Both the position numbers and the translations under genes were made by a program. This document shows positions 6,902-46,683 of a stretch of DNA of 64,000 nucleotides, piece by piece. Position 1 is the stretch's first letter. Every line of letters starts with the position of its first letter. The notes under the pieces were generated by a model, which did not search any database, had not been told where the DNA came from, and saw nothing but the letters and a program-made list of their open reading frames with translations. Origin of the DNA: Corallium rubrum (lineage: Eukaryota; Cnidaria; Anthozoa; Scleralcyonacea; Coralliidae); assembly GCA_964035015.1 (NCBI GenBank), contig OZ036010.1, positions 8,948,620-9,012,619 of the forward strand, given 5' to 3'.

Positions 6902-6906
6902 AGTAT

Positions 6907-7965: not shown

Positions 7966-7971
7966 TGTATA
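7962..7971 (+). promoter_or_regulatory. Start-proximal TTAGTGTATA motif
   Basis: TTAGTGTATA overlaps the integrase stop codon and ends two bases before the next ATG (7973). The same motif or a close variant precedes many other genes of both elements. Confidence 0.45.
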
Positions 7972-7972
7972 G

Positions 7973-9487: not shown

Positions 9488-9502
9488 GATATAACTTAGT
9501 CT

Positions 9503-10738
9503 ATGTTGCAGGAAGATAGAATCACTCCAAGCTACAAACTAAAGAAACCAGACAGTAGTAAGAAAGGCACTAGGAGAGTAGTCGACGTAACATTTAACCC
9601 AACACATATATCCTCTGGTCAGGACCTGTATGTAAAGCTGTCGACACTACCGGTTAATCATGTACTAATCCCTGGTAGTAGGATGCTTACATTCACCCTG
9701 AAAAATGGAAATAAGGAGTCATACCATCAGAACAACCTTAAGTCCACCCTGTTCAAGCAGGTAACCCACAAGCTTAATGGGGAAATATATAGGGACCTGA
9801 ATGAAGCCCATGTTCTTAGGTGTTATGAGGACCTTTGGTCTAAGTCAAAGCGGGTTGGAAAAATTGATCAAGGTCTTGGCGGGAGTGTTAATCTTGCTAA
9901 GCTTAGAAGTCAAGATGCAAGTGGTGACTCTAGTGTAGCTGGTGATGTCCTTGTGAATGGAATCTATGGTGACAGGTTCACAATACCTATTGATGACGAC
10001 TGGCTTAGTGAAAATGGGGCTATCTATCCCCAAGCATTGCAGAACACACATGAGACCATACTAAAGATCAACACACCAGCTAATGTGTTACTCCCCGGAG
10101 GCAGTGGTAAGGCTGTGCCAGCAAGCTTCAGACTTGATAACCTTAAGCTGAGGTATGAGACAGTCGAGAATGAGATGCTAGCAGGTGAGGTTGAGGGGAT
10201 TTACAGCAGGGGGAAGTCTTCCTATTACAGTCATGCCACCCTGGTTAAGACCTTTCCAGTTACTGCTGCAAGCACAAAGATTCATGAGAATGTGAACTTA
10301 CCAAGGAAGTCCCTTAGAAATATCGTAATGATCTTTAAAAGAACCACTGATGGAAGTGAGTCTTTCTACTACCCATCTATTGAAAGTGTTAAGATAAGCT
10401 TCCAGGGCCAGCCAAACTTCCTGTATACACAGTCGATGAAGAAGTACGATTTCTTCAGTGAGGCTAGTCGTGTGTTCTTCCCAAGTGATGACAGGTTTGA
10501 TAGGAATGTTAGTGAGGTGAGTTTCTTCAGTGATAAGTTTGCCCTGGTCTGTGACTTCTCAACAACAGCGTTAAAGAGAGTACAGGGTCAGGGTGTGAAG
10601 CTAACTGATACACAGAATGGAATACTTATCGAGGTTGAGAAAAGTGCCGGGACCACTGCCTGTACCTGCTACCTTTACGTGCTGTCGGATGGGTTAATAA
10701 ACCTGGCTAATGGTCAGCTTCAGTCTATTCAGTATTAG
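9503..10738 (+). CDS. Putative major capsid protein (element A)
   Basis: 411 aa, without membrane segments, rich in beta-prone stretches. It is collinear with the 413-aa element B protein (44159-45400): shared blocks include FNP..I..GQDLY, NLPRKS.R.IVMIF, Y..IESVKI...G.PN and the end VLSDGLINL. In Polinton-like elements the double jelly-roll capsid protein is a protein of this kind lying between the penton-like gene and the packaging ATPase. Position, size and conservation support the call; a structure prediction would decide it. It is preceded by TTAGTCTATG at the start codon. The frame is intact, unlike several neighbours. Confidence 0.55.
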   Translation: MLQEDRITPSYKLKKPDSSKKGTRRVVDVTFNPTHISSGQDLYVKLSTLPVNHVLIPGSRMLTFTLKNGNKESYHQNNLKSTLFKQVTHKLNGEIYRDLNEAHVLRCYEDLWSKSKRVGKIDQGLGGSVNLAKLRSQDASGDSSVAGDVLVNGIYGDRFTIPIDDDWLSENGAIYPQALQNTHETILKINTPANVLLPGGSGKAVPASFRLDNLKLRYETVENEMLAGEVEGIYSRGKSSYYSHATLVKTFPVTAASTKIHENVNLPRKSLRNIVMIFKRTTDGSESFYYPSIESVKISFQGQPNFLYTQSMKKYDFFSEASRVFFPSDDRFDRNVSEVSFFSDKFALVCDFSTTALKRVQGQGVKLTDTQNGILIEVEKSAGTTACTCYLYVLSDGLINLANGQLQSIQY

Positions 10739-10741
10739 TGT

Positions 10742-11337
10742 ATGGATAAGCCAGAGACTATTCTGATAGTTGGGCCATCTGGATGTGGTAAAACTTACAC
10801 ATTGCTTAACGAAATACTTTCTGTAGAGTATAGTAAGTATTTTGACTTCATCATAATACTCTGTCCTACACTGTGGATAAATATGACATACCTAGACTGG
10901 GGATATCTTAATAGCGACCCAGATGTCATCGGACTTAGCATAAGCCCAGATAGACTAGACCCTGTTATTGAGGCTATAGTAAAAATTTACTCCGGATCTA
11001 AGACTGCTGTAATAGTTGATGACATGAGTAATACAGGTGATCAACATCTTAACGACGGCATGCTGGCTTTTTATCATACAGTGGCAGGCATCATAATATC
11101 ACATTGTTCATTCTAACGCAAAAGCTAAACAGTGTCGCGACTGGTATAAGGGACAACACCACCAGACTGTTATTTTTCAGTACGCATAACAGGAGAAGTA
11201 TGAAGGTGCTGAGGGATGAGTTTTTTGGACATATAGCAGACGATGAAATGGAAAAGTCTATCATTGCGCAGCTTGCCACCGGTAAGTACCTTGACATTAA
11301 ACTCAGTGCGCAGCCTCCGACCTACGAGGTTAAATGA
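10742..11337 (+). pseudogene. FtsK/A32-type genome-packaging ATPase, frameshifted (element A)
   Basis: The first frame (10742-11116) carries a Walker A motif (GPSGCGKT, residues about 11-18) and a Walker B strand (TAVIVDDMS). The second frame (11104-11337) continues the C-terminal part seen in element B. The element B gene (43550-44158) is one frame of 202 aa, so A has a frameshift around 11095-11116. Such ATPases pump DNA into capsids. The broken gene suggests element A can no longer package itself. The start ATG lies inside TTAGTGTATG, which also contains the capsid gene's stop. Confidence 0.75.
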
Positions 11338-11352
11338 AACATAACCTAATGT

Positions 11353-11889
11353 ATGCCTAAGAGGGAAGGTAAGCGCAGTAAAAATGAGCCAGTTGTTATT
11401 GAAGATGATGAAGCTATCGAAAAGCTAGTTGATGAGCTTCAGGTTGCGGAAGAGAGTATCGCTAAAACCACCATAAACACTGACGTCGACACCAGGCGCG
11501 AGGAACTTATAGTTGCGTCTGATGATGCATGGTACATTACCCAGAAGTCCGGACATATAAGAAAATGTAGTGAGAAGACATTAGACAAAATTTACAAGGC
11601 CTATGAAGCTAAAAGGAAGAAGGACGCAGACGGGTTCCTAACAGATTTACTAATAAGTCAGTTCTCAACAATGCTTGGTGGCCTTGACGCAATTGAGGAT
11701 CCTGTTGCGCTAACAGATGAACTTAAAAGTAATGGTATACTGAGAAAAGATGTTGAGAGTATTATATCAGTAGTTAGCCCATACATACCCCTAATAGGAT
11801 TACTTGGAGGTGTTGCTATAACTGGTAAGCATATATACCAGCATAAGAATAGTACACAACCTATAGTATATGAACAAGACCCTAAGTAG
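11353..11889 (+). CDS. Conserved protein with C-terminal hydrophobic hairpin (element A)
   Basis: 178 aa. A basic, charged N-terminus is followed by a helical domain with the conserved pattern K.YEAKR...A..FLTD.LIS.FS..LGGLDA. The C-terminal hydrophobic segment (about residues 143-165) contains SPYIP..GLLGG. The element B homologue at 42958-43545 has the same plan. It directly follows the packaging ATPase in both elements, so it may be a virion or maturation factor. No catalytic motif is visible. Its end overlaps the next gene's start by 20 bp. Confidence 0.6.
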   Translation: MPKREGKRSKNEPVVIEDDEAIEKLVDELQVAEESIAKTTINTDVDTRREELIVASDDAWYITQKSGHIRKCSEKTLDKIYKAYEAKRKKDADGFLTDLLISQFSTMLGGLDAIEDPVALTDELKSNGILRKDVESIISVVSPYIPLIGLLGGVAITGKHIYQHKNSTQPIVYEQDPK

Positions 11890-13302
11890 ATTCTTCGCTA
11901 AGTACCCATATGCTGACAAAAGTAAGTTTATAACTAGCTCGGTATTTGGTAAGACAGAACCAGGCGTGTTCTTCGGGCCTGTCGGTGCTGATGGTACATA
12001 CATCTACACCGAGGACCAGGAATTCAAGAGTAACAAAAGCTACACTAAGTACCTAACAGCAGATAGGCCGCCGCCAAGATTCCCAAAAATATGGCTAGGT
12101 GGTGGTACTGTGCAGAAAGTCCAGGGTAAGCGACATTGGGAGAAGGATGTTGAGGGAAAACACGACTTCTCAAAGTTCACATACTTATCAGAAAATGTTA
12201 TAGACTATGACCTTAACAATTTCAGGATCTATGTTAACGACCATAACTTTTTCATGTCTAAATTACCAGTACTTAACCCAGGAAATAGGACGGATATTGC
12301 TGTGTGGTGGAATAACAACGAACCTTACTACCAGTTAATCTTCGCTGTCTACCTAAGTACGTACTGCTGTGGTGTTGGGGTTGAGCATCTAAAGTTCTCC
12401 GATGATGTTTATCCAGTGGTTACGTCTATTATGCGCTTCCATGTGTACTTCACTACCCGACGTATACTAAGACGTCTTATAAAGGAAAAGAAAAGTGATC
12501 TAATGAGGGAATTTGGTGCTGGGAAGGATGTAATCGACAATATGGATAATATACCTAGAGAGAAAAAGTTCTTGATTAATCCACACTCTGGTCAGCATCA
12601 TGACCGTGCATTTAAGGAGTGGATGTGGCGTCTTAACCCTGATTATAAAACACACTACAGAAGGTTCATACCACTTAAGACAGATGGTTTTACCAGGATA
12701 GGGCTACAATATATAAACGAGTCTATCGAGGCTTATGTCTATGCAGTGCTAGGCTCTCAAGCTAAAACAAGGGTAAGTATCGTTAAGAAGGGTGCTGGAA
12801 GTCTGGAGTCACAACAGGAATTCAGAGTCCTCGTAAATGACGCCGTCGTTAACTACTTCTGTTAGCACTTGGATTCTGAATATGAACAGATCAATATCAG
12901 ATACTAACGTAACCCAGAACTTGGCCATAAGTCCTGACACATGGTTAGTGCCAGGGTCACTCACAATACTGAAGAAATTAAAAAATTATCGGATATAACA
13001 ACTTACTCAAACACGCGTCTGATGCTATGAAATTTGGTATTAACTCTAAAGTAAACTACCAGCAGGTTGTCCATAGGCAGCCAAAGAAGATACACCATGA
13101 ATATGTCCCACATCTGGAAACATTAGATGAGGAACCGGAAAAGCCACCTCATAAGGAAAATGCAATCTTCCATACACCTGGTACAAACACTGATAATGTA
13201 GCCATCCACACACCTGGCACAAACACGACGGATAATGAGCTGGGGATTATCTTAGTTGTAACAGCTGTGGCCGGATATCTGTTCAGTAAAAACGTCCTGT
13301 AG
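11870..13302 (+). pseudogene. Large conserved element protein, broken by frameshifts (element A)
   Basis: The homologue in element B (48504-50069) is one 521-aa frame. In A the first 331 codons (11870-12865) match, then the frame is lost near 12860. The next stretch continues in another frame to about 12998, and the final 91 codons (13027-13302) match again. Shared landmarks are WLGGGTVQKVQGKRH, DYDLNNFRIYV and YCCGVG.EHLKFS. The last part carries two HTPGTNT repeats and a C-terminal hydrophobic helix (GIILVVTAVAGYLF). The family is conserved but I do not recognise its function. In B this gene is divergent from the integrase, not at the end of the capsid block. Confidence 0.65.
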
Positions 13303-15597: not shown

Positions 15598-15940
15598 AAA
15601 CGCCCATAAATTAAGACAAGTTTTACCTCAAATTTCTCTTTAAACACTGATTTGTTTGAGAAGCTATACCATACACTGAAAACACCTCGAAGTGAGTTAA
15701 AAAACTCGGTTATCACCTAGTTTTTCAACACATTTCTCGGTGTTTTGAAATCAGATAATAAATGGTTTTTCGTGTATGATATATTACATCAACAATCATA
15801 AAGGACTTATGCAGCGAAAACTAAGTTCGGGAGACTCGCTTCGTTTAAAAGAACGTTTGAAGTTATAAAGATTAACCTTTGCAGCTCTTCCATATCGTAC
15901 CGTTCGTTCTTTAGATATTGAGATTTGTTTTATTTATCAA

Positions 15941-16093
15941 ATAAAACATAAAGCTCCGTGCATATGTACTCTTATAAAGGCACGTTTGACGTCATTTGAA
16001 CACGAAAGAAGTTGAGTAGAGTGAAGTTCGTGTTCAAATGACGTCAAATGTACCTTTATAAGAGTACATATACACAGGAGCGATATGTTTTAT
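15941..16093. repeat. Palindromic element (about 150 bp)
   Basis: Arms of about 63 bp (15941-16003 and 16027-16093) are inverted copies with few mismatches and a loop of about 20 bp. Non-coding. Confidence 0.7.
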
Positions 16094-16268
16094 TTGTTTT
16101 ATAAAATAAGAAGAGGAAAAATCAAACTAAAAGTGAGGTAGTTTAGGAATTTGGCGGGCTTTTCCGGCCAGCTGACGCCATTCTACGTCATTCATGATCT
16201 ATGTTCTCTTATAAATGCACGGAGCCCAGCCAATCAGAGCGTGCGTAGAGGGCACCTTATTTTATAAA

Positions 16269-16545
16269 TGTAAATAACGTCACTTAGACGTCATATTGCA
16301 AATGACTTGTTAGGAAATCTTGAATATCAATTTTAAATTATTTAACGAAATCACTTTTAACTGCGCATGTGCTTCTGTGTATCGCAGAACATGAAAATTT
16401 TCAAGTGATTTACTTTAAGGGGTCATACACAAAATACGGGACGCTTTTTTCGCAATTTTTTACTACCCCCTACCCCCCTGTGACAATCTGTGACGGTTGG
16501 CATTACCCCCCATCGAAAATTACGTGACTCTGAGCCCCCCCCCCC

Positions 16546-16589
<44 letters not shown>

Positions 16590-17064
16590 TACACACCAAA
16601 TTAATATGCAGTAATTCGAGAGCATGAGAGCATGTGCTGGATCTACATCTACAATTTTGGACTGAGCCTTCAGGATCTAGTGTCAGCGATCACTCAACTT
16701 TCACGGTAAATACTTAATGCTAGCTCCAAGATATCGTTTGTGGTATAGAATGAGGATTTGCAACTCTACAATAAATTCTCAACATTAACATTTAACATGG
16801 TCTTGTTTAATTTCAGCCTCTCCGTCACGTGACAGTGATTTTATATACTTAGCGCTTTAGAATATTTATAGTTTTAGCGCTTTATAAATGAAAAAATAAT
16901 AAAAAAAAATAAATGTAAATTATTTGTGATACCCCCTCCCCCCTTGCGACATTGTGACTATTGTTCAAACACACAACCCCACCCCCCAAAGTGTCACGTA
17001 TTTTGTGTATGGCCCCTAAATGAAGTCATTATGCAGTATGACGTCTAAGTGATGTTATTTGCAT
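16269..17064. repeat. Nested inverted-repeat element containing an (AC)n microsatellite
   Basis: Outer arms at 16269-16306 and 17024-17064 enclose a second inverted pair (about 16418-16440 and 16998-17019, around GGTCATACACAAAATACG). Inside is a C-run plus (AC)n tract at about 16536-16586. No gene is visible. Confidence 0.6.
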
Positions 17065-17079
17065 ATCACGCGAATCTTA

Positions 17080-17151
17080 GACCTGCGCTAAACGTCGCAC
17101 AATAGACGAATTTAATCGGGTTTATTTCGACGAAGCTGCGACGTATAACTC
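17080..17151. mobile_element. Left piece of the interrupted host MITE
   Basis: This sequence matches, in reverse complement, the end of the uninterrupted element at about 37180-37566. The match breaks exactly at 17151 and resumes at 29305, so the 12.15-kb array lies inside this MITE. Confidence 0.75.
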
Positions 17152-17405
17152 CAATCCTGGAAAAAAATTCGTAGACTTTTTGAATTTTTATACTATTTCC
17201 CCCTCCCCCCCTACACAATGTTGGTATTTAGACGATATGACTTGCAAAATCGACTTTACCTTAACCAACATTGTGTAGGGGGGAGGGGGGAAGCAATTTT
17301 AGGGCATTAAGCGCATGAGTTTGGAGGAGTACGCATATTTTCATGACGTATTCTTAAATTTAGATATAGTTTTCAAAAAGTCTACGGGTATTTTTTCCAA
17401 GATTG
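17152..17405. repeat. Terminal repeat T1 of the Rep/transposase array
   Basis: 254 bp. It begins CAATCCTGGAAAAAAATTCG and ends in the imperfect inverse (...TTTTTTCCAAGATTG), giving outer arms of about 34 bp. A nearly perfect inner stem of about 28 bp follows: a pyrimidine-rich strand ending ACACAATGTTGGT (17198-17227) pairs with the strand starting ACCAACATTGTGTAGGG (17264-17291). A single strand could fold into a two-tier hairpin, as in the ends of some linear single-stranded DNA viruses. Confidence 0.8.
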
Positions 17406-17534
17406 TCTCTAAATCCAAAAACAAATTGAGAATGGGAGACTAAATGTTTAGACCATAGAAATTTTTCAATTTTATGATATTGCTAGACTGAGAACAAAAA
17501 GCAACAAAGGGACTAGAAAAAACAATGTATATAC

Positions 17535-17580
17535 GTTTCGGGGGGGGGGGGGGGGGGGGGGGGTGGCGGTTGGTGGCAGG
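17535..17580 (+). promoter_or_regulatory. G-tract upstream of Rep (unit 1)
   Basis: An uninterrupted G-run followed by GGTGGCGGTTGGTGG lies about 110-150 bp upstream of the Rep start. The run length differs between units (longest here, shorter at about 21504 and 25469). A matching C-rich tract lies upstream of the transposase gene at the other end of the body, so both genes are preceded on their coding strand by G-runs able to form four-stranded DNA. Confidence 0.4.
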
Positions 17581-17687
17581 GCTATCTCGCGGGCTCAGCC
17601 AGCTTCGATACGATGATGGCTGAAATGCGTATTCTTCTGTGTGGTAAATTAAATCTGCTATTTACGAGTTAGCTACGGCTTCACTTA

Positions 17688-19019
17688 ATGGATGAAATTG
17701 ATAAATCTAAACCAAGGAGGAGCTATCTGATCACTTACAGCAAAGCGGATTTGCAAAAGTTTTCAACCAGGGAATCATTTGGCGAAGCTGTAGTTGCTGC
17801 ATTCACTTCGAAACGAAGTAAAGTCGTTCCACAACATTGGGCATGTTGCTTGGAGAAACACTCAGATGGTGGTTACCATTATCATCTATCCTTGAAGCTC
17901 AGTGGCCCAAAAAGGTGGCTAGAAGCTAAGAGAGCTCTTGAAGCGGAACACGGTATAACTGTTAACTTCTCTGATCACGATGGCTACTATAGTGCGTACC
18001 GCTACATCAACAAATATGATGACATGGTTTTCCACAGCACAGGGCACCCCAATCTGCATGAAGTTGGGTCCCCAAGGACAAAGCGATGTCAACAAGCATA
18101 CCGAAAAAGGCGCTGCGATGAAAGATCGCAAGAGAAGACTGATGAGGAGACAACTACTAAAAGAAAGAAAAAGCTTTCAAACTTAGAAGTGGCTGATTTT
18201 ATAGTCACACAGGAAATCAAGTCTGAGACTGAACTCTTAGCTATTGCTAATGAACAAAGAGAAGAAGGGAAGAAAGATCTTGCAGATTTCGTGCTGTCAC
18301 GCAGTTCGAAGAGCCTGAATGACCTTATTCGGCAAACATGGAAAATGAAGAAAGCCTCTTCGACTCTAGAACGACAAAATGCGTCTCGCATGGACTTGAT
18401 ACGGAAGGCGGCTAGCGGTGAATGTGCACCAACTTGTGAAGGAAAATGGTTACAGTGTGCTAAAGAAGTGCTTATCAACAATAAAGTACATCCGATATTG
18501 TTTGCTGCTCATGTTAGGGAGCTGTTATTGTTAGGAAGAGGGAAGTACAGGAACGTGATTATAGTTGGCCCAACAAACTGTGGAAAAACATTCCTATTGA
18601 AGCCATTGGAGTTAATATTCAAGACCTTTTCAAACCCAGCAGCGGACAAGTATGCTTGGGTTGGAGCCGACAATGCTGAAATTATTTTGTTAAATGATTT
18701 TAGATGGAGTAAAGAATTGATAGAATGGAAAAGCTTTTTACTGCTGTTGGAAGGAGATCTAGTCAACCTTCCAGCCCCAAAGAATCATTTCAGCACTGAT
18801 GTTTGCATTAATGATGACACTCCTATATTTGCGACTTCAAAGTGTATCATCAAATACAAAGGCATTTATAACTCGCAAGATGAAGGTGAGGATGAAATGA
18901 TGGCATCAAGGTGGAAAGTACTCACGTTTTTCCATAGCATTCCAGAGAATGAGCAAAAGAATGTGGCACCCTGCTCAAAATGTTTTGCAGACCTTGCTCT
19001 CATGGGAGAAATAAGCTAA
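17688..19019 (+). CDS. Rep: HUH endonuclease + SF3 helicase (unit 1)
   Basis: 443 aa, intronless. The N-terminal HUH domain shows motif 1 (SYLITYS, about residues 12-18), the metal-binding H64-Y-H66 in GGYHYHLSLK, and a catalytic-tyrosine motif YYSAYRYINK (Y104 or Y106, K109). A basic stretch (KRKKK near 158) may be a nuclear signal. The SF3 helicase part has Walker A GPTNCGKT (294-301), Walker B IILLNDF (332-338), the PIFATS sensor motif (379-384) and a likely arginine finger in MASRWKV (R408). A short CSKC lies at the end. Such Reps nick one strand at a hairpin origin and unwind DNA for rolling-circle or rolling-hairpin replication. This order is known in CRESS-DNA virus and parvovirus-type Reps. 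It is identical in the three units and converges on the transposase gene. Confidence 0.9.
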   Translation: MDEIDKSKPRRSYLITYSKADLQKFSTRESFGEAVVAAFTSKRSKVVPQHWACCLEKHSDGGYHYHLSLKLSGPKRWLEAKRALEAEHGITVNFSDHDGYYSAYRYINKYDDMVFHSTGHPNLHEVGSPRTKRCQQAYRKRRCDERSQEKTDEETTTKRKKKLSNLEVADFIVTQEIKSETELLAIANEQREEGKKDLADFVLSRSSKSLNDLIRQTWKMKKASSTLERQNASRMDLIRKAASGECAPTCEGKWLQCAKEVLINNKVHPILFAAHVRELLLLGRGKYRNVIIVGPTNCGKTFLLKPLELIFKTFSNPAADKYAWVGADNAEIILLNDFRWSKELIEWKSFLLLLEGDLVNLPAPKNHFSTDVCINDDTPIFATSKCIIKYKGIYNSQDEGEDEMMASRWKVLTFFHSIPENEQKNVAPCSKCFADLALMGEIS

Positions 19020-19202
19020 GGTATTTTCACGGAACACGTAAACTGCTACATCTCTGAAGAATTATTGTAATAAAATGGAGAGTAAGAGACATTTCTGTTT
19101 GTTTTTTACATGCTAGTGTTTAACATACTGTTATAAATGACTTATTCATTATGATGATCTTTCATACTGTACATTTTCAACTGTTGTGTTCTAATAAATC
19201 TT

Positions 19203-19443
19203 TATGTTACATGTTACAGCATGTTACACTACATGTTACACTGCATGTTACACTAAAATTATTATATTATCTTATCAATCTTTACATGTTACAACATGTT
19301 ACACCTACTTTTTTAAATAAAATATATAGTCTATTTTAAAAAGTAGGTGTAACATGTTGTAACATGTGAAGAATTATAGTAGGATATAACAATTTTAGTG
19401 TAACATATAGTGTAACATGTAGTGTAACATGGTGTAACATGTG
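19203..19443. repeat. Central iteron-like palindrome (unit 1)
   Basis: About 240 bp between the stops of Rep and transposase form a large interrupted palindrome. A core of two perfect 30-bp arms lies at 19284-19313 and 19338-19367. Outer arms carry several spaced copies of TGTTACA/CATGTTACA on the left and TGTAACATG on the right. Repeated short motifs arranged as a cruciform next to a Rep gene suggest an origin or Rep-binding site, or a two-way terminator. No nicking site can be assigned by eye. Confidence 0.65.
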
Positions 19444-19689
19444 GTAATTGTAGTCAGACTGTTTATTACTTATATAATAAAAAGACCTTCGTTGGGGAAA
19501 ACACCCATTTTGTGGCAAATGCGTGTACATGTACATTGAAACCATATTCAATAACGTCAAATGTGTACCACGCTGACTGATAAAATTCTTGAGGTAAGCC
19601 TTTTCCAGTACTGTTAGATGTCTTTCCAGTTAAAAGATGTCCAAAATGTAACGATCAAGAAATATGATATCACACGTTAACCTATAAAA

Positions 19690-20786
19690 CTAATACTTGC
19701 TTCTTTGACCCTTTCCTTCAATAACTGCCGTGATCCTTTTGTCCATGCTGTCAATAATTTTGTCAATTTCCTTAGAACTGAAACTTAACGTAGTTTCTTT
19801 GACCCGAATAGATAAATCCTTAAAGCTTTCTTTGGTAATTTGCTTTTCTAAAGCATCATTCTTTAATCGCATAGTTAGGGTATGGAAAAAATTTTCAATA
19901 GGATTCAAGTCAGGGCTTCGGGGAGGAATTTTGAACACTAATCCACGCACTTTGTCAATAGCACGCATTGCCATCTTTGAATTTTGCCTTGGGCACCCAT
20001 CCATGAGAAATCTCTTCGCCTTTGGGTTTGAAGATTTTTGGAATGCTTTCGGGAATGCCGACTTGACAATTGCTGCAAATTTCTTGCCCGTAATTGGGCC
20101 ATCATACTGTTCACAGAGAACAACACCCTTGCCGTAGGATATAGCTACCATGAAGTTTACATTAATGGCACCTTCCTTCTTTCCTTTGGCAGTGCAATTA
20201 AATTTTAAACCTTCTCCCCGTTTTCTCCATTCCCGAGCTCGTGGTGCACGTGCCTGGTCGTAAGGGTTGATTTTGTACTGAAATCCTTTCCCATCCAAAT
20301 AAAATGATAGACCAGTTCTCCAGAATTCGTCTCCTAACTTTTTCTTTCTAACCTTCCTGCAAAACTTCATCCTAGATTTTAGATCTTTGGCATGGAGAAG
20401 ACCTTTTTTCTCGTCTGTAAATACCAGTAACCCTCTTCATTCAAGTGATTACGAATAGTTCGACTGGTTACATGCTTTACGCCACTTTCCAGCTGAATTC
20501 GCTTTGACGTAAAGGAACCTGCCTTCTCTCGGAGACTTGTTACAGAGCGCACTATACTTCTCTTGTCTTGAAGGGATAATTTTGTTGGTCTCCCTTTATT
20601 TTGCTTTCTCTTATCAAAAATAGGCTCACCATTTAGTGGCTTCTTGGCGTGCTTATAAATTGCAGCTTTAGAGTACTGGGGAAACATTTTTAAAAGCGTC
20701 TTCCCTCGAATTTTTGACAGCTGGTATGCAGCTCTTATTTGAGCAGAATGTTCCAAACATACTTTTTGGCAAGTTTTTTTAGCCAT
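19690..20786 (-). pseudogene. Tc1/mariner-type transposase, frameshifted (unit 1)
   Basis: The gene is collinear with the intact copies in units 2 and 3 but is split into 20379-20786 and 19690-20370. The cause is visible: a run of seven T on the plus strand in units 2 and 3 is six T here (about 20404-20409). The rest of the sequence is nearly identical, so the loss is recent or an assembly error in a homopolymer. All catalytic residues lie in the downstream part. Confidence 0.85.
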
Positions 20787-20954
20787 CTAAAATGAAAAAA
20801 TGTTACCATTGTGGAATAACTACCATTAAAATACTGTTCAGAGGTAACCATATCAACGTTTAAAAATTGCACAGGTCAAGTAAATTACCTGAATCCAATT
20901 GAATAAAATACGTTTCACCTGAAAACAGATCATCTACAGACAACATCCAAAACT

Positions 20955-20990
20955 GTCCACCCCCCCCCACCCCACCCCAACCACCCCCCC
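20955..20990 (-). promoter_or_regulatory. C-rich tract upstream of the transposase (unit 1)
   Basis: A tract of C-runs broken by single A or AA lies about 170 bp upstream of the transposase start, so it reads as G-runs on the coding strand. It mirrors the G-tract ahead of Rep. Its length varies between units (also at about 24919-24953 and 28881-28919). Confidence 0.35.
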
Positions 20991-21121
20991 GTCATCAAAA
21001 AAATTTAATCAAGCCCTGAACTATATTCCTGATATACGGTCCTATATATATCTCAAATTGTATATTGAAAATTCACGTTCAATTAATCTCAGAAAATGAT
21101 TACGTGTCCTCTTTTTTCAGA

Positions 21122-21370
21122 CAATCCTGGAAAAAAATTCGTAGACTTTTTGAATTTTTATACTATTTCCCCCTCCCCCTACACAATGTTGGTATTTAGA
21201 CGATATGACTTGCAAAATCGACTTTACCTTAACCAACATTGTGTAGGGGGGGGGGAAGCAATTTTAGGGCATTAAGCGCATGAGTTTGGAGGAGTACGCA
21301 TATTTTCATGACGTATTCTTAAATTTAGATATAGTTTTCAAAAAGTCTACGGGTATTTTTTCCAAGATTG
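21122..21370. repeat. Terminal repeat T2
   Basis: 249 bp, the same orientation and two-tier inverted structure as T1, with shorter C and G runs. It separates units 1 and 2. Confidence 0.8.
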
Positions 21371-21647
21371 TCTCTAAATCCAAAAACAAATTGAGAATGG
21401 GAGACTAAATGTTTAGACCATAGAAATTTTTCAATTTTATGATATTGCTAGACTGAGAACAAAAAGCAACAAAGGGACTAGAAAAAACAATGTATATACG
21501 TTTCGGGGGGGGGGGAGGGAGGGTGGCGGTTGGTGGCAGGGCTATCTCGCGGGCTCAGCCAGCTTCGATACGATGATGGCTGAAATGCGTATTCTTCTGT
21601 GTGGTAAATTAAATCTGCTATTTACGAGTTAGCTACGGCTTCACTTA

Positions 21648-22979
21648 ATGGATGAAATTGATAAATCTAAACCAAGGAGGAGCTATCTGATCACTTACAG
21701 CAAAGCGGATTTGCAAAAGTTTTCAACCAGGGAATCATTTGGCGAAGCTGTAGTTGCTGCATTCACTTCGAAACGAAGTAAAGTCGTTCCACAACATTGG
21801 GCATGTTGCTTGGAGAAACACTCAGATGGTGGTTACCATTATCATCTATCCTTGAAGCTCAGTGGCCCAAAAAGGTGGCTAGAAGCTAAGAGAGCTCTTG
21901 AAGCGGAACACGGTATAACTGTTAACTTCTCTGATCACGATGGCTACTATAGTGCGTACCGCTACATCAACAAATATGATGACATGGTTTTCCACAGCAC
22001 AGGGCACCCCAATCTGCATGAAGTTGGGTCCCCAAGGACAAAGCGATGTCAACAAGCATACCGAAAAAGGCGCTGCGATGAAAGATCGCAAGAGAAGACT
22101 GATGAGGAGACAACTACTAAAAGAAAGAAAAAGCTTTCAAACTTAGAAGTGGCTGATTTTATAGTCACACAGGAAATCAAGTCTGAGACTGAACTCTTAG
22201 CTATTGCTAATGAACAAAGAGAAGAAGGGAAGAAAGATCTTGCAGATTTCGTGCTGTCACGCAGTTCGAAGAGCCTGAATGACCTTATTCGGCAAACATG
22301 GAAAATGAAGAAAGCCTCTTCGACTCTAGAACGACAAAATGCGTCTCGCATGGACTTGATACGGAAGGCGGCTAGCGGTGAATGTGCACCAACTTGTGAA
22401 GGAAAATGGTTACAGTGTGCTAAAGAAGTGCTTATCAACAATAAAGTACATCCGATATTGTTTGCTGCTCATGTTAGGGAGCTGTTATTGTTAGGAAGAG
22501 GGAAGTACAGGAACGTGATTATAGTTGGCCCAACAAACTGTGGAAAAACATTCCTATTGAAGCCATTGGAGTTAATATTCAAGACCTTTTCAAACCCAGC
22601 AGCGGACAAGTATGCTTGGGTTGGAGCCGACAATGCTGAAATTATTTTGTTAAATGATTTTAGATGGAGTAAAGAATTGATAGAATGGAAAAGCTTTTTA
22701 CTGCTGTTGGAAGGAGATCTAGTCAACCTTCCAGCCCCAAAGAATCATTTCAGCACTGATGTTTGCATTAATGATGACACTCCTATATTTGCGACTTCAA
22801 AGTGTATCATCAAATACAAAGGCATTTATAACTCGCAAGATGAAGGTGAGGATGAAATGATGGCATCAAGGTGGAAAGTACTCACGTTTTTCCATAGCAT
22901 TCCAGAGAATGAGCAAAAGAATGTGGCACCCTGCTCAAAATGTTTTGCAGACCTTGCTCTCATGGGAGAAATAAGCTAA
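21648..22979 (+). CDS. Rep: HUH endonuclease + SF3 helicase (unit 2)
   Basis: The 443-aa product is identical to that of unit 1, with all HUH and SF3 motifs intact. The G-run upstream is shorter and interrupted by A residues. Identity at the protein level and almost no silent change imply that the copies separated very recently or are being homogenised. Confidence 0.9.
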   Translation: MDEIDKSKPRRSYLITYSKADLQKFSTRESFGEAVVAAFTSKRSKVVPQHWACCLEKHSDGGYHYHLSLKLSGPKRWLEAKRALEAEHGITVNFSDHDGYYSAYRYINKYDDMVFHSTGHPNLHEVGSPRTKRCQQAYRKRRCDERSQEKTDEETTTKRKKKLSNLEVADFIVTQEIKSETELLAIANEQREEGKKDLADFVLSRSSKSLNDLIRQTWKMKKASSTLERQNASRMDLIRKAASGECAPTCEGKWLQCAKEVLINNKVHPILFAAHVRELLLLGRGKYRNVIIVGPTNCGKTFLLKPLELIFKTFSNPAADKYAWVGADNAEIILLNDFRWSKELIEWKSFLLLLEGDLVNLPAPKNHFSTDVCINDDTPIFATSKCIIKYKGIYNSQDEGEDEMMASRWKVLTFFHSIPENEQKNVAPCSKCFADLALMGEIS

Positions 22980-23162
22980 GGTATTTTCACGGAACACGTA
23001 AACTGCTACATCTCTGAAGAATTATTGTAATAAAATGGAGAGTAAGAGACATTTCTGTTTGTTTTTTACATGCTAGTGTTTAACATACTGTTATAAATGA
23101 CTTATTCATTATGATGATCTTTCATACTGTACATTTTCAACTGTTGTGTTCTAATAAATCTT

Positions 23163-23403
23163 TATGTTACATGTTACAGCATGTTACACTACATGTTACA
23201 CTGCATGTTACACTAAAATTATTATATTATCTTATCAATCTTTACATGTTACAACATGTTACACCTACTTTTTTAAATAAAATATATAGTCTATTTTAAA
23301 AAGTAGGTGTAACATGTTGTAACATGTGAAGAATTATAGTAGGATATAACAATTTTAGTGTAACATATAGTGTAACATGTAGTGTAACATGGTGTAACAT
23401 GTG
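23163..23403. repeat. Central iteron-like palindrome (unit 2)
   Basis: Same as the palindrome at 19203-19443, offset by 3960 bp and without visible change. Confidence 0.65.
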
Positions 23404-23649
23404 GTAATTGTAGTCAGACTGTTTATTACTTATATAATAAAAAGACCTTCGTTGGGGAAAACACCCATTTTGTGGCAAATGCGTGTACATGTACATTGAA
23501 ACCATATTCAATAACGTCAAATGTGTACCACGCTGACTGATAAAATTCTTGAGGTAAGCCTTTTCCAGTACTGTTAGATGTCTTTCCAGTTAAAAGATGT
23601 CCAAAATGTAACGATCAAGAAATATGATATCACACGTTAACCTATAAAA

Positions 23650-24747
23650 CTAATACTTGCTTCTTTGACCCTTTCCTTCAATAACTGCCGTGATCCTTTT
23701 GTCCATGCTGTCAATAATTTTGTCAATTTCCTTAGAACTGAAACTCAACGTAGTTTCTTTGACCCGAATAGATAAATCCTTAAAGCTTTCTTTGGTAATT
23801 TGCTTTTCTAAAGCATCATTCTTTAATCGCATAGTTAGGGTATGGAAAAAATTTTCAATAGGATTCAAGTCAGGGCTTCGGGGAGGAATTTTGAACACTA
23901 ATCCACGCACTTTGTCAATAGCACGCATTGCCATCTTTGAATTTTGCCTTGGGCACCCATCCATGAGAAATCTCTTCGCCTTTGGGTTTGAAGATTTTTG
24001 GAATGCTTTCGGGAATGCCGACTTGACAATTGCTGCAAATTTCTTGCCCGTAATTGGGCCATCATACTGTTCACAGAGAACAACACCCTTGCCGTAGGAT
24101 ATAGCTACCATGAAGTTTACATTAATGGCACCTTCCTTCTTTCCTTTGGCAGTGCAATTAAATTTTAAACCTTCTCCCCGTTTTCTCCATTCCCGAGCTC
24201 GTGGTGCACGTGCCTGGTCGTAAGGGTTGATTTTGTACTGAAATCCTTTCCCATCCAAATAAAATGATAGACCAGTTCTCCAGAATTCGTCTCCTAACTT
24301 TTTCTTTCTAACCTTCCTGCAAAACTTCATCCTAGATTTTAGATCTTTGGCATGGAGAAGACCTTTTTTTCTCGTCTGTAAATACCAGTAACCCTCTTCA
24401 TTCAAGTGATTACGAATAGTTCGACTGGTTACATGCTTTACGCCACTTTCCAGCTGAATTCGCTTTGACGTAAAGGAACCTGCCTTCTCTCGGAGACTTG
24501 TTACAGAGCGCACTATACTTCTCTTGTCTTGAAGGGATAATTTTGTTGGTCTCCCTTTATTTTGCTTTCTCTTATCAAAAATAGGCTCACCATTTAGTGG
24601 CTTCTTGGCGTGCTTATAAATTGCAGCTTTAGAGTACTGGGGAAACATTTTTAAAAGCGTCTTCCCTCGAATTTTTGACAGCTGGTATGCAGCTCTTATT
24701 TGAGCAGAATGTTCCAAACATACTTTTTGGCAAGTTTTTTTAGCCAT
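23650..24747 (-). CDS. Tc1/mariner-type DD34E transposase (unit 2)
   Basis: 365 aa, intact and intronless. The N-terminal part (about residues 1-60) is a helix-turn-helix region, followed by a GRPTKL AT-hook-like motif (65-70) and a second helical DNA-binding region. The catalytic core shows D165 in SFYLDGKGF, D263 in LMDGCPRQNS and E298 in PPRSPDLNPIENFF, with 34 residues between the second D and the E. This is the DD34E spacing of Tc1-like elements. Family members cut at terminal inverted repeats and insert at TA. The array, however, is flanked by TC, so either this enzyme has a different target or it did not make this insertion. It is tail-to-tail with Rep. Confidence 0.9.
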   Translation of the reverse strand: MAKKTCQKVCLEHSAQIRAAYQLSKIRGKTLLKMFPQYSKAAIYKHAKKPLNGEPIFDKRKQNKGRPTKLSLQDKRSIVRSVTSLREKAGSFTSKRIQLESGVKHVTSRTIRNHLNEEGYWYLQTRKKGLLHAKDLKSRMKFCRKVRKKKLGDEFWRTGLSFYLDGKGFQYKINPYDQARAPRAREWRKRGEGLKFNCTAKGKKEGAINVNFMVAISYGKGVVLCEQYDGPITGKKFAAIVKSAFPKAFQKSSNPKAKRFLMDGCPRQNSKMAMRAIDKVRGLVFKIPPRSPDLNPIENFFHTLTMRLKNDALEKQITKESFKDLSIRVKETTLSFSSKEIDKIIDSMDKRITAVIEGKGQRSKY

Positions 24748-25083
24748 CTAAAATGAAAAAATGTTACCATTGTGGAATAACTACCATTAAAATACTGTTC
24801 AGAGGTAACCATATCAACGTTTAAAAATTGCACAGGTCAAGTAAATTACCTGAATCCAATTGAATAAAATACGTTTCACCTGAAAACAGATCATCTACAG
24901 ACAACATCCAAAACTGTCCACCCCCCCCCCACCCCCACCCCAACCACCCCCCGTCATCAAAAAAATTTAATCAAGCCCTGAACTATATTCCTGATATACG
25001 GTCCTATATATATCTCAAATTGTATATTGAAAATTCACGTTCAATTAATCTCAGAAAATGATTACGTGTCCTCTTTTTTCAGA

Positions 25084-25335
25084 CAATCCTGGAAAAAAAT
25101 TCGTAGACTTTTTGAATTTTTATACTATTTCCCCCTCCCCCTACACAATGTTGGTATTTAGACGATATGACTTGCAAAATCGACTTTACCTTAACCAACA
25201 TTGTGTAGGGGGGAGGGGGGAAGCAATTTTAGGGCATTAAGCGCATGAGTTTGGAGGAGTACGCATGTTTTCATGACGTATTCTTAAATTTAGATATAGT
25301 TTTCAAAAAGTCTACGGGTATTTTTTCCAAGATTG
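25084..25335. repeat. Terminal repeat T3
   Basis: 252 bp, same orientation and structure as T1. It separates units 2 and 3 and differs by a few substitutions (for example ACGCATGTTTT in place of ACGCATATTTT). Confidence 0.8.
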
Positions 25336-25608
25336 TCTCTAAATCCAAAAACAAATTGAGAATGGGAGACTAAATGTTTAGACCATAGAAATTTTTCAAT
25401 TTTATGATATTGCTAGACTGAGAACAAAAAGCAACAAAGGGACTAGAAAAAACAATGTATATACGTTTCGGGGGGGGGGGAGGGTGGCGGTTGGTGGCAG
25501 GGCTATCTCGCGGGCTCAGCAAGCTTCGATACGTTGATGGCTGAAATGCGTATTCTTCTGTGTGGTAAATTAAATCTGCTATTTACGAGTTAGCTACGGC
25601 TTCACTTA

Positions 25609-26940
25609 ATGGATGAAATTGATAAATCTAAACCAAGGAGGAGCTATCTGATCACTTACAGCAAAGCGGATTTGCAAAAGTTTTCAACCAGGGAATCATT
25701 TGGCGAAGCTGTAGTTGCTGCATTCACTTCGAAACGAAGTAAAGTCGTTCCACAACATTGGGCATGTTGCTTGGAGAAACACTCAGATGGTGGTTACCAT
25801 TATCATCTATCCTTGAAGCTCAGTGGCCCAAAAAGGTGGCTAGAAGCTAAGAGAGCTCTTGAAGCGGAACACGGTATAACTGTTAACTTCTCTGATCACG
25901 ATGGCTACTATAGTGCGTACCGCTACATCAACAAATATGATGACATGGTTTTCCACAGCACAGGGCACCCCAATCTGCATGAAGTTGGGTCCCCAAGGAC
26001 AAAGCGATGTCAACAAGCATACCGAAAAAGGCGCTGCGATGAAAGATCGCAAGAGAAGACTGATGAGGAGACAACTACTAAAAGAAAGAAAAAGCTTTCA
26101 AACTTAGAAGTGGCTGATTTTATAGTCACACAGGAAATCAAGTCTGAGACTGAACTCTTAGCTATTGCTAATGAACAAAGAGAAGAAGGGAAGAAAGATC
26201 TTGCAGATTTCGTGCTGTCACGCAGTTCGAAGAGCCTGAATGACCTTATTCGGCAAACATGGAAAATGAAGAAAGCCTCTTCGACTCTAGAACGACAAAA
26301 TGCGTCTCGCATGGACTTGATACGGAAGGCGGCTAGCGGTGAATGTGCACCAACTTGTGAAGGAAAATGGTTACAGTGTGCTAAAGAAGTGCTTATCAAC
26401 AATAAAGTACATCCGATATTGTTTGCTGCTCATGTTAGGGAGCTGTTATTGTTAGGAAGAGGGAAGTACAGGAACGTGATTATAGTTGGCCCAACAAACT
26501 GTGGAAAAACATTCCTATTGAAGCCATTGGAGTTAATATTCAAGACCTTTTCAAACCCAGCAGCGGACAAGTATGCTTGGGTTGGAGCCGACAATGCTGA
26601 AATTATTTTGTTAAATGATTTTAGATGGAGTAAAGAATTGATAGAATGGAAAAGCTTTTTACTGCTGTTGGAAGGAGATCTAGTCAACCTTCCAGCCCCA
26701 AAGAATCATTTCAGCACTGATGTTTGCATTAATGATGACACTCCTATATTTGCGACTTCAAAGTGTATCATCAAATACAAAGGCATTTATAACTCGCAAG
26801 ATGAAGGTGAGGATGAAATGATGGCATCAAGGTGGAAAGTACTCACGTTTTTCCATAGCATTCCAGAGAATGAGCAAAAGAATGTGGCACCCTGCTCAAA
26901 ATGTTTTGCAGACCTTGCTCTCATGGGAGAAATAAGCTAA
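25609..26940 (+). CDS. Rep: HUH endonuclease + SF3 helicase (unit 3)
   Basis: A third copy with the same 443-aa product. The upstream DNA has small private changes (AGCAAGCTTCGATACGTTG here against AGCCAGCTTCGATACGATG in units 1 and 2), which shows that the units are separate copies in the data and not simple duplicated text. Confidence 0.9.
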   Translation: MDEIDKSKPRRSYLITYSKADLQKFSTRESFGEAVVAAFTSKRSKVVPQHWACCLEKHSDGGYHYHLSLKLSGPKRWLEAKRALEAEHGITVNFSDHDGYYSAYRYINKYDDMVFHSTGHPNLHEVGSPRTKRCQQAYRKRRCDERSQEKTDEETTTKRKKKLSNLEVADFIVTQEIKSETELLAIANEQREEGKKDLADFVLSRSSKSLNDLIRQTWKMKKASSTLERQNASRMDLIRKAASGECAPTCEGKWLQCAKEVLINNKVHPILFAAHVRELLLLGRGKYRNVIIVGPTNCGKTFLLKPLELIFKTFSNPAADKYAWVGADNAEIILLNDFRWSKELIEWKSFLLLLEGDLVNLPAPKNHFSTDVCINDDTPIFATSKCIIKYKGIYNSQDEGEDEMMASRWKVLTFFHSIPENEQKNVAPCSKCFADLALMGEIS

Positions 26941-27123
26941 GGTATTTTCACGGAACACGTAAACTGCTACATCTCTGAAGAATTATTGTAATAAAATGGA
27001 GAGTAAGAGACATTTCTGTTTGTTTTTTACATGCTAGTGTTTAACATACTGTTATAAATGACTTATTCATTATGATGATCTTTCATACTGTACATTTTCA
27101 ACTGTTGTGTTCTAATAAATCTT

Positions 27124-27364
27124 TATGTTACATGTTACAGCATGTTACACTACATGTTACACTGCATGTTACACTAAAATTATTATATTATCTTATCAAT
27201 CTTTACATGTTACAACATGTTACACCTACTTTTTTAAATAAAATATATAGTCTATTTTAAAAAGTAGGTGTAACATGTTGTAACATGTGAAGAATTATAG
27301 TAGGATATAACAATTTTAGTGTAACATATAGTGTAACATGTAGTGTAACATGGTGTAACATGTG
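27124..27364. repeat. Central iteron-like palindrome (unit 3)
   Basis: Same as the palindrome at 19203-19443, offset by 7921 bp. Confidence 0.65.
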
Positions 27365-27610
27365 GTAATTGTAGTCAGACTGTTTATTACTTATATAATA
27401 AAAAGACCTTCGTTGGGGAAAACACCCATTTTGTGGCAAATGCGTGTACATGTACATTGAAACCATATTCAATAACGTCAAATGTGTACCACGCTGACTG
27501 ATAAAATTCTTGAGGTAAGCCTTTTCCAGTACTGTTAGATGTCTTTCCAGTTAAAAGATGTCCAAAATGTAACGATCAAGAAATATGATATCACACGTTA
27601 ACCTATAAAA

Positions 27611-28708
27611 CTAATACTTGCTTCTTTGACCCTTTCCTTCAATAACTGCCGTGATCCTTTTGTCCATGCTGTCAATAATTTTGTCAATTTCCTTAGAACT
27701 GAAACTTAACGTAGTTTCTTTGACCCGAATAGATAAATCCTTAAAGCTTTCTTTGGTAATTTGCTTTTCTAAAGCATCATTCTTTAATCGCATAGTTAGG
27801 GTATGGAAAAAATTTTCAATAGGATTCAAGTCAGGGCTTCGGGGAGGAATTTTGAACACTAATCCACGCACTTTGTCAATAGCACGCATTGCCATCTTTG
27901 AATTTTGCCTTGGGCACCCATCCATGAGAAATCTCTTCGCCTTTGGGTTTGAAGATTTTTGGAATGCTTTCGGGAATGCCGACTTGACAATTGCTGCAAA
28001 TTTCTTGCCCGTAATTGGGCCATCATACTGTTCACAGAGAACAACACCCTTGCCGTAGGATATAGCTACCATGAAGTTTACATTAATGGCACCTTCCTTC
28101 TTTCCTTTGGCAGTGCAATTAAATTTTAAACCTTCTCCCCGTTTTCTCCATTCCCGAGCTCGTGGTGCACGTGCCTGGTCGTAAGGGTTGATTTTGTACT
28201 GAAATCCTTTCCCATCCAAATAAAATGATAGACCAGTTCTCCAGAATTCGTCTCCTAACTTTTTCTTTCTAACCTTCCTGCAAAACTTCATCCTAGATTT
28301 TAGATCTTTGGCATGGAGAAGACCTTTTTTTCTCGTCTGTAAATACCAGTAACCCTCTTCATTCAAGTGATTACGAATAGTTCGACTGGTTACATGCTTT
28401 ACGCCACTTTCCAGCTGAATTCGCTTTGACGTAAAGGAACCTGCCTTCTCTCGGAGACTTGTTACAGAGCGCACTATACTTCTCTTGTCTTGAAGGGATA
28501 ATTTTGTTGGTCTCCCTTTATTTTGCTTTCTCTTATCAAAAATAGGCTCACCATTTAGTGGCTTCTTGGCGTGCTTATAAATTGCAGCTTTAGAGTACTG
28601 GGGAAACATTTTTAAAAGCGTCTTCCCTCGAATTTTTGACAGCTGGTATGCAGCTCTTATTTGAGCAGAATGTTCCAAACATACTTTTTGGCAAGTTTTT
28701 TTAGCCAT
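27611..28708 (-). CDS. Tc1/mariner-type DD34E transposase (unit 3)
   Basis: 365 aa, intact, with the same product as unit 2 and D165, D263 and E298 present. Unit 2 has at least one silent difference (C at about 23745 where units 1 and 3 have T). With two intact copies the element could still be supplied with active enzyme, if it is expressed. Confidence 0.9.
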   Translation of the reverse strand: MAKKTCQKVCLEHSAQIRAAYQLSKIRGKTLLKMFPQYSKAAIYKHAKKPLNGEPIFDKRKQNKGRPTKLSLQDKRSIVRSVTSLREKAGSFTSKRIQLESGVKHVTSRTIRNHLNEEGYWYLQTRKKGLLHAKDLKSRMKFCRKVRKKKLGDEFWRTGLSFYLDGKGFQYKINPYDQARAPRAREWRKRGEGLKFNCTAKGKKEGAINVNFMVAISYGKGVVLCEQYDGPITGKKFAAIVKSAFPKAFQKSSNPKAKRFLMDGCPRQNSKMAMRAIDKVRGLVFKIPPRSPDLNPIENFFHTLTMRLKNDALEKQITKESFKDLSIRVKETTLSFSSKEIDKIIDSMDKRITAVIEGKGQRSKY

Positions 28709-29050
28709 CTAAAATGAAAAAATGTTACCATTGTGGAATAACTACCATTAAAATACTGTTCAGAGGTAACCATATCAACGTTTAAAAATTGCACAGGTCA
28801 AGTAAATTACCTGAATCCAATTGAATAAAATACGTTTCACCTGAAAACAGATCATCTACAGACAACATCCAAAACTGTCCACCCCCCCCCCCCCCCACCC
28901 CCACCCCAACCACCCCCCCGTCATCAAAAAAATTTAATCAAGCCCTGAACTATATTCCTGATATACGGTCCTATATATATCTCAAATTGTATATTGAAAA
29001 TTCACGTTCAATTAATCTCAGAAAATGATTACGTGTCCTCTTTTTTCAGA

Positions 29051-29304
29051 CAATCCTGGAAAAAAATTCGTAGACTTTTTGAATTTTTATACTATTTCCC
29101 CCTCCCCCCCTACACAATGTTGGTATTTAGACGATATGACTTGCAAAATCGACTTTACCTTAACCAACATTGTGTAGGGGGGAGGGGGGAAGCAATTTTA
29201 GGGCATTAAGCGCATGAGTTTGGAGGAGTACGCATATTTTCATGACGTATTCTTAAATTTAGATATAGTTTTCAAAAAGTCTACGGGTATTTTTTCCAAG
29301 ATTG
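29051..29304. repeat. Terminal repeat T4
   Basis: 254 bp, same orientation as T1-T3. It ends at GATTG (29300-29304), followed by the duplicated TC (29305-29306) and then the resumed MITE sequence GATTAAATTCG. Confidence 0.8.
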
Positions 29305-29616
29305 TCGATTAAATTCGACAAATGAATTAAATTCATCTCGGCAATTAAATTCGTCTGAGTCAGACGGATAATGCGACGATAATGCGTGTTCGAGTTAGAT
29401 GACGAATTATCTTCGCATCGAATTAATTGTTTCGCTTGTCTGTGACAATTCGGTGCCATGTTTTCAAGAAGTCGTTTTCAGGATCCACGAGTTCAAGTAA
29501 CAACAATTAAATTCGACTGAAATTCGACGTTTAACTCGACGTCGCATTTACGTCACATTACCGACGAAGTTAATTCGAATTAAATTCGTCTATTGTGTGA
29601 CGTTTAGGGCAGGCCT
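29305..29616. mobile_element. Right piece of the interrupted host MITE
   Basis: It matches, in reverse complement, the rest of the element at 37180-37566 and ends with the inverted terminal sequence GACGTTTAGGGCAGGCC. With 17080-17151 it makes one element of about 385 bp. Confidence 0.75.
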
Positions 29617-29860
29617 CAATATCTAACGAACGAAGTGAGATATGAAAGAGCTGCAAACGTCAATCTTTATAACTTCAAAAGTTCTTTGAAATAAGAGTCT
29701 CCCCGGAACTTATTAATTTAATTTTAGAATAAACATATAAAGTATGTAATTACACAGTATGCATTTTCATTGTGTATATGACACAAGCCAACATGTACCT
29801 GCAGGTATTTTTCTCTCTGAAACCACTCTATGACGTCATCAAGTGTGACCGTCCATCCGT
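29617..29860. other. Short unassigned AT-rich stretch
   Basis: No gene, inverted repeat or RNA is recognised between the end of the MITE and the tetranucleotide array. Confidence 0.4.
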
Positions 29861-29863
29861 TGG

Positions 29864-30660
<797 letters not shown>

Positions 30661-32139: not shown

Positions 32140-32455
<316 letters not shown>

Positions 32456-32465
32456 GTCGGGTCGG

Positions 32466-32692
32466 GTCCAAGTCCAAGTCCAAGTCCAAGTCCAAGTCCA
32501 AGTCCAAGGCCAAGGCCAAGGCCAAGGCCAAGTCCAAGTCCAAGGCCAAGGCCAAGGCCAAGTCCAAGTCCAAGGCCAAGGCCAAGTCCAAGTCCAAGGC
32601 CAAGTCCAAGTCCAAGTCCAAGTCCAAGTCCAAGTCCAAGGCCAAGGCCAAGTCCAAGGCCAAGTCCAAGTCCAAGTCAAGCCAAGCCAAGT
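32466..32692. repeat. Hexanucleotide array (AAGTCC/AAGGCC)n
   Basis: About 38 hexamers alternate between AAGTCC and AAGGCC in irregular runs. It lies directly after the tetranucleotide array. Confidence 0.9.
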
Positions 32693-32755
32693 CAAGCCAA
32701 GTATCAGGCCACTACTCTTACTGATCAACTACATGTAAAGTAGTAAATATCGTAC

Positions 32756-37179: not shown

Positions 37180-37566
37180 CTAAGGCCTACGCTAAACCTC
37201 GCACGATAGACGAATTTAATTCGGATTAACTTCGTCGGTAATGCGACGTAAATACGACGTCGAGTAAAACGTCGAATTTCCGTCGAATTTAACTGTTTTA
37301 CTTGAACGCGTGGAGCCTGAAAACGACTTCTTAACGCCGAATTGTCACAGACAGAAGAGAAACATTTAATTCGACGCGACGATATTTCGTCGTGTAACTC
37401 GAACACGCCTTATCGTCGCATTATCCGTCTGACTTAGACGAGTTTAATTCATGTGTCGAATTTAATCGAGTTACACGTTGCAGTTTCGTCGAATAAAATT
37501 CAAGCAATTCAATTCGTCTGAATTAAATTCAATTCATCTATCGTGCGACGTTTAGCACAGGCCTAA
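37180..37566. mobile_element. Uninterrupted MITE, relative of the one carrying the Rep array
   Basis: About 387 bp with inverted ends (AGGCCTACGCTAAACC / GTTTAGCACAGGCCT) and many TCGAATTTAAT-like motifs. Its reverse complement aligns along its length with 17080-17151 plus 29305-29616. The point matching the array insertion is at about 37465-37470, where GAGTTA occurs without interruption. Confidence 0.75.
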
Positions 37567-37593
37567 GATGATTTACGAATTCTCCAAACTTAC

Positions 37594-43545: not shown

Positions 43546-43549
43546 CTTA

Positions 43550-45400: not shown

Positions 45401-45417
45401 ATACTACATAACAGGTT

Positions 45418-46677: not shown

Positions 46678-46683
46678 TATATA

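Follow-up and report, generated by a model that had tools for sequence, protein, structure and literature searches.

A tandem element of Corallium rubrum that joins a Rep protein to a Tc1/IS630-like transposase

DNA transposons have been described as usually sorted by one enzyme, be it a DDE transposase, a Rep/HUH protein, or a protein-primed polymerase (PMC5718144). The closest published system that joins two of these is the geminivirus-like transposon of Tuber melanosporum, a multicopy element with a Rep-like gene, two transposase open reading frames (ORFs), 37-bp terminal inverted repeats (TIRs), and no obvious target duplication, whose consensus contains interrupted or truncated ORFs (Liu et al. 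2011, PMC3198968). Here, we describe a Corallium rubrum element that encodes a Rep protein and a Tc1/IS630-like DDE transposase and is repeated three times in tandem at positions 17152 to 29306 of the window, meaning the whole 64,000-nucleotide stretch analyzed (GenBank assembly GCA_964035015.1, contig OZ036010.1, positions 8,948,620 to 9,012,619, forward strand). Like the Tuber element, it carries Rep and transposase between TIRs in a eukaryotic host; as published, the Tuber element differs in having a geminivirus-type Rep and a transposase of unnamed family, and its description does not extend to a tandem array with shared terminal units. This likeness is drawn from the published description of the Tuber element. 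The general idea is already in print with the Tuber element (PMC3198968), a precedent for a combination of which the first-pass annotation of this DNA knew no named example. What seems to be new is that such a Rep and a Tc1/IS630 transposase occur together, intact, in tandem arrays sharing terminal units, with hundreds of relatives; no report of a Rep with a Tc1/IS630-type transposase in another eukaryotic element was found in the literature searched, although Repbase may hold a named entry.

Repeated elements with NS1- or E1-like proteins are described from the acorn worm (a parvovirus-like repeat with a 5' palindromic hairpin and a capsid-like gene), Hydra (DENSOV_HM), and planarians (PIVE and PEVE); unlike the present element, they are given no transposase in the section of the paper devoted to them (PMC3198968). 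With Tc1/mariner-IS630 elements the array element shares transposase fold, DD34E triad, helix-turn-helix, and TIRs; it differs in its added Rep, its palindromic ends of 251 to 256 bp, the insertion of this copy at TC instead of TA, and its end-sharing tandem units. Helitrons and Replitrons are eukaryotic elements with an HUH enzyme, and the array element differs from them in that its helicase belongs to superfamily 3 (SF3), its ends are inverted, and it has a DDE enzyme. Krupovic and Forterre are said to have discussed, in 2015, inoviruses that integrate by DDE transposases, and Teratorn is reportedly a fusion of a piggyBac-like transposon and a herpesvirus. Like the array element, these are replicons with their own replication genes that enter chromosomes by a DDE enzyme; unlike it, they have unrelated replication genes and other hosts and sizes, and they encode virion proteins.

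The locus, one array and one insertion within the window, has the order T-I-T-I-T-I-T, with three head-to-tail I units and four palindromic terminal units (T), all in one orientation; its right edge lies at 29304 or 29306. The first-pass annotation had recognized the tandem array, given its position, and named both gene families; all of this proved real, with the refinement that there are three units and four T copies. The features are as follows.

17152..17407, + strand: T1, 256-bp palindromic terminal unit at the outer left edge, starting CAATCCTGG, with an inner C/G-rich hairpin; DNA fold z score -11.0
17688..19019, + strand: Rep of unit 1, 443 amino acids (aa), HUH nuclease (HYH 64-66, Y106xxK109) and SF3 helicase; DNA the same as in unit 2
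19209..19442, unstranded: central palindrome of unit 1, abutting 117-bp arms with CATGTTACA-type iterons; z score -19.5
19690..20786, - strand: DDE transposase of unit 1, split by a 1-base indel (ORFs 19690-20370 and 20379-20786)
21122..21372, + strand: T2, 251 bp, common to units 1 and 2
21648..22979, + strand: Rep of unit 2, DNA the same as in units 1 and 3
23169..23402, unstranded: central palindrome of unit 2
23650..24747, - strand: DDE transposase of unit 2, 365 aa, DD34E (D165, D263, E298), intact
25084..25337, + strand: T3, 254 bp, common to units 2 and 3
25609..26940, + strand: Rep of unit 3
27130..27363, unstranded: central palindrome of unit 3
27611..28708, - strand: DDE transposase of unit 3, intact, 1 base different from unit 2
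29051..29306, + strand: T4, 256 bp, the same as T1, at the outer right edge, where a final GATTG is followed by TC
37294..37569, - strand: related host repeat in which AACTC/GATTAAATTCG, the unoccupied insertion site, is unbroken

Pairwise alignment of the I units, which measure 3714, 3711, and 3713 bp, shows 5, 5, and 3 substitutions and a few indels, chiefly near the G and C runs, and T1 and T4 do not differ at all. Because the units are so alike, amplification of the array must have been recent. A simple assembly duplication was considered as the source, and the few real differences between units speak against it.

Rep is complete in all three units, as first annotated, with HYH, YxxK, and SF3 motifs intact. 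The HUH nuclease joined to an SF3 helicase that marks CRESS (circular Rep-encoding single-stranded) DNA replicons was found both in the motifs and in the fold, determined on the unit 2 copy. The designation HUH/SF3 Rep was upheld on these grounds; its assignment to a single class was not. In fold comparison, the nuclease had its best single-domain matches among CRESS/geminivirus Reps, and the helicase came nearest to those of parvoviruses (adeno-associated virus [AAV] Rep40 and B19 NS1) and papillomaviruses. Among the best viral models for Rep, parvovirus NS1 was frequent, with papillomavirus E1 and CRESS Reps interspersed, and Parvo_NS1 matched 6 of 20 Rep family members (E ≤0.1, best 7.3e-6). 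Rep does not belong simply to one class. Nearly all motif residues are kept across the 20 aligned members, indicating that Rep is under selection.

The transposase is Tc1/IS630-like, with a DDE_3 domain and the triad D165, D263, and E298, the last two separated by 34 residues, which bears out its earlier description as DD34E. A complete copy had been claimed for every unit; this holds for units 2 and 3, and in unit 1 the gene is frameshifted. The two genes converge in every unit and neither ORF has introns, so that the picture of a compact, intronless element joining a replication initiator to an unrelated DDE enzyme stands. No capsid gene (CRESS-DNA or Parvoviridae VP) was found among the unspliced ORFs of unit 2 that lie mainly outside both genes, the longest of which encodes 74 aa; the Rep and transposase genes themselves contain antisense ORFs of 130 and 135 aa. 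Since no capsid gene was seen, "replicating transposon" is the apter of two labels offered earlier, the other being an integrated single-stranded DNA (ssDNA) virus.

Two palindromes distinguish each unit, and both had been sketched beforehand, as hairpin-like repeats bounding the units and as a palindrome on which the genes converge. In T, an inner hairpin with C- and G-rich arms is enclosed by outer arms that are inverted, CAATCCTGGAAAAAAATTCGTAGACTTTTTGAA being matched by an imperfect complement, and the outer arms, CAATCCTGG...CCAAGATTG, form TIRs as in Tc1/mariner elements. Folded as DNA, T1 was more stable than any of 200 shuffles (the z score given above). T is visibly asymmetric, with 47 nucleotides between the left end of T4 and its inner hairpin and 117 between that hairpin and the right end. 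The central palindrome, between the convergent genes, is 234 bp long, with its two arms 88% complementary and AATAAA-type motifs flanking it on both sides; none of 200 shuffles was as stable as the unit 1 copy. Per unit it holds CATGTTACA iterons, 6 in one direction and 5 in the other, and no iteron was found in any T copy. We infer that the DDE enzyme acts on T and that Rep has its origin at the central palindrome. Runs of G occur near the start of each I (17540-17563, 21505-21515, and 25470-25480) and runs of C near its end (20960-20968, 24921-24930, and 28882-28896); each inner T copy lies between a C run to its left and a G run to its right, and run lengths differ by unit. These runs beside T could possibly form G-quadruplexes.

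Both flanks of the array belong to one host repeat with inverted ends (15822-17151 and 29307-29712). Joined, they read AACTCGATTAAATTCG, and the same sequence is uninterrupted at 37294-37569 in a related repeat spanning about 37180-37569, from which we conclude that insertion of the array was precise. The unoccupied site is AACTCGATTAA, duplication amounts to TC at most, and the single TC is either duplicated target or element end. GA stands before T2, T3, and T4 and the host TC before T1 alone, which places the left cut at the T edge; TC follows all four T copies. Helitrons have 5' TC and 3' CTRR ends and insert between A and T, and the ends and target of the array differ from these.

Relatives of both proteins were sought among candidates at E ≤1e-3, yielding 759 of 7375 for Rep and 832 of 2325 for the transposase; the best 120 of each were compared, and an unpaired Rep in such a sample is uninformative. 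One Rep was assigned to the coral Paramuricea clavata, among the 5 of the best 120 with a source name, and no relative of Rep turned up in scans of contigs from IMG/VR and GTDB. The first-pass annotation would have been refuted had the two genes been adjacent only here. As far as equal longest contigs can tell, they are not: 11 further Rep/DDE pairs had longest contigs of exactly equal length, whereas 200 shifted controls averaged 1.16 such pairs and reached 5 at most (contigs of at least 3 kb; 91 of 119 listed Reps with a contig and 80 DDE contigs from two combined lists). An earlier count of the best-120 lists that included short contigs gave 9 matches (control mean 2.2, maximum 7). Three of the 11 pairs lie on contigs above 15 kb (15303, 17319, and 30496), where coincidence is least likely, and listed sources overlap in all 11, which is weak as a check, most rows coming from one source. 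Of the 91 Rep contigs, 44 measure 3.4 to 5.6 kb, which fits one unit and also a collapsed repeat. The window and the pairs on contigs of 3874, 3397, 3914, and 4093 bp cluster in both trees (support 100/100 for Rep and 93/92 for DDE). Over 12 pairs including the window, Rep and DDE distances were correlated (Mantel r 0.83, p 3e-5), a value driven by the close clade and for that reason not used as evidence of ancient pairing. Several relatives appear to keep Rep and transposase together.

Our leaning, a slight one, is toward an autonomous element with two modes, in which Rep would amplify it by rolling-circle replication and integration of one or more units at T would fall to the DDE enzyme. A unit could take a circular form that has a single T. 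Rep would bind the iterons and nick at the central palindrome, and its SF3 helicase would drive rolling-circle replication to head-to-tail concatemers. The DDE enzyme would recognize the inverted ends of T (CAATC...GATTG) and cut one T at its left edge and a later T at its right edge, and T-I-T or a longer multimer would enter the chromosome. T would act like a terminal repeat, and solo T copies could remain. Such a mechanism would explain n units with n+1 T, the T shared at each joint, the head-to-tail order, and the clean edges. More tentatively, and with less confidence than an even chance, we suggest that there may be a broad undescribed group of eukaryotic elements that exist by turns as free rolling-circle replicons and as multimers integrated by the DDE enzyme, each enzyme having a palindrome of its own. 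Their Rep, combining a CRESS-type nuclease with a parvo/papilloma-type helicase, would be intermediate between CRESS viruses and the parvo-, papilloma-, and polyomavirus lineage. If true, one element that combines an HUH/SF3 replicase with a DDE integrase would have two routes of copy gain, blur the line between transposons and ssDNA viruses, and offer a testable model of the way in which ssDNA replicons enter eukaryotic chromosomes. The array Rep would also bear on the route by which parvo- and papillomaviruses are proposed to have arisen from CRESS viruses (Kazlauskas et al. 2019, PMC6668415).

Several points weigh against this reading. The circle, the concatemer, the nicking, and the cutting are all deduced and none was observed, and there is a single insertion, with T ends known from the window copies alone. 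Tc1/mariner elements target TA and duplicate it, and this insertion is at TC. The CRESS-DNA replicon origin motif, the nonanucleotide NANTATTAC, had no match in unit 2 on either strand; TATTAC (once on each strand), TAATATT (once, + strand), and the AAV-like nick motif RRTTGG (5 and 4 on the two strands) were judged uninformative. Equal length is not proof of a common contig, and about 1 of the 11 pairs is expected by chance. Deep branches conflict for the pair on the 15303-bp contig, its Rep grouping with 4324 (100/99) and its transposase with 17319 (91/92), and without the window's four nearest pairs the distance correlation fell to r 0.13 (p 0.28, 8 loci). Pairing is recurrent, but because deep branches disagree and distances are uncorrelated outside the close clade, partners may have been exchanged, or some length matches may be false or due to chance. 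Finally, recombination between T copies accounts for the array as simply: its order, the n+1 T, and the T edges fit an integrated multimer and equally a single-unit insertion later expanded.

The latter account, in its full form, would make the element an ordinary DDE transposon, T-I-T, carrying Rep, that became a trimer by chromosomal unequal crossing-over between T copies, as do tandem long terminal repeat elements, with no replicating circle and with Rep acting on the chromosome or not at all. One T per joint and n+1 T fit direct-repeat recombination just as well, and the units are almost identical; yet Rep is under selection and the iteron palindrome would be left without a role, and we regard this account as unlikely, though a serious contender. 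We give considerably less credence to a parvovirus-like linear replicon, with T as a telomeric hairpin, rolling-hairpin replication, and a DDE enzyme added later. T, with its outer arms and inner hairpin, recalls the AAV inverted terminal repeat, an imperfect palindrome with an internal hairpin, and the helicase fold, the NS1 models, and the Parvo_NS1 matches noted above point the same way. Rolling-hairpin intermediates, however, run head to head and tail to tail, and the array runs head to tail; flip-flop would mix orientations, yet the four asymmetric T copies share one (chance 1 in 8 if random); the iterons are central; and no capsid gene was found in the unit 2 ORFs that lie mainly outside the two genes. 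Improbable, too, is integration by Rep through Helitron-like HUH chemistry with the DDE enzyme an accessory and TC part of the end: the edges can be read as CAATC...GATTGTC inserted without duplication, but they match the inverted T ends, the usual substrate of a DDE enzyme, and the helicase is SF3 where that of Helitrons is Pif1-like. That a transposon landed once beside an endogenized Rep gene and the pair was then duplicated is very improbable, since, even though deep-branch partners do not track one another, there are 11 further pairs by equal longest contigs, 5 of 12 pairs (window included) cluster in both trees, and the layout is compact and convergent.

Elsewhere in the window, an rve integrase with a chromodomain lies at 47387-48520 within the stretch 42958-48520 (- strand), which also holds a Pox_A32-type packaging ATPase at 43550-44158, and another such integrase lies at 6820-7965 within 6820-12865 (+ strand). 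Neighboring ORFs in both stretches had no Pfam assignment, and we infer that the stretches are Polinton/Maverick-like. With the Pao retrotransposon gene given below, they would suit a eukaryotic host, perhaps a marine invertebrate. In tblastn, weak resemblance to the Rep helicase region at 10607-10804 (E 0.008) and 44000-44143 (E 0.02), near or within these Polinton-like genes, perhaps reflects only a common P-loop. Short tandem arrays with units of 4, 6, 12, and 17 bp are dense near the element (29863-30262, 30372-30658, 32157-32702, and 37971-39740). The window also contains an ORF with BRO-N and VRR_NUC domains (439-1299, - strand), a long open Pao/BEL retrotransposon polyprotein ORF of 1828 aa (51241-56727, - strand), and a deoxynucleoside kinase ORF (57575-58348, - strand; PF01712, E 2e-39).

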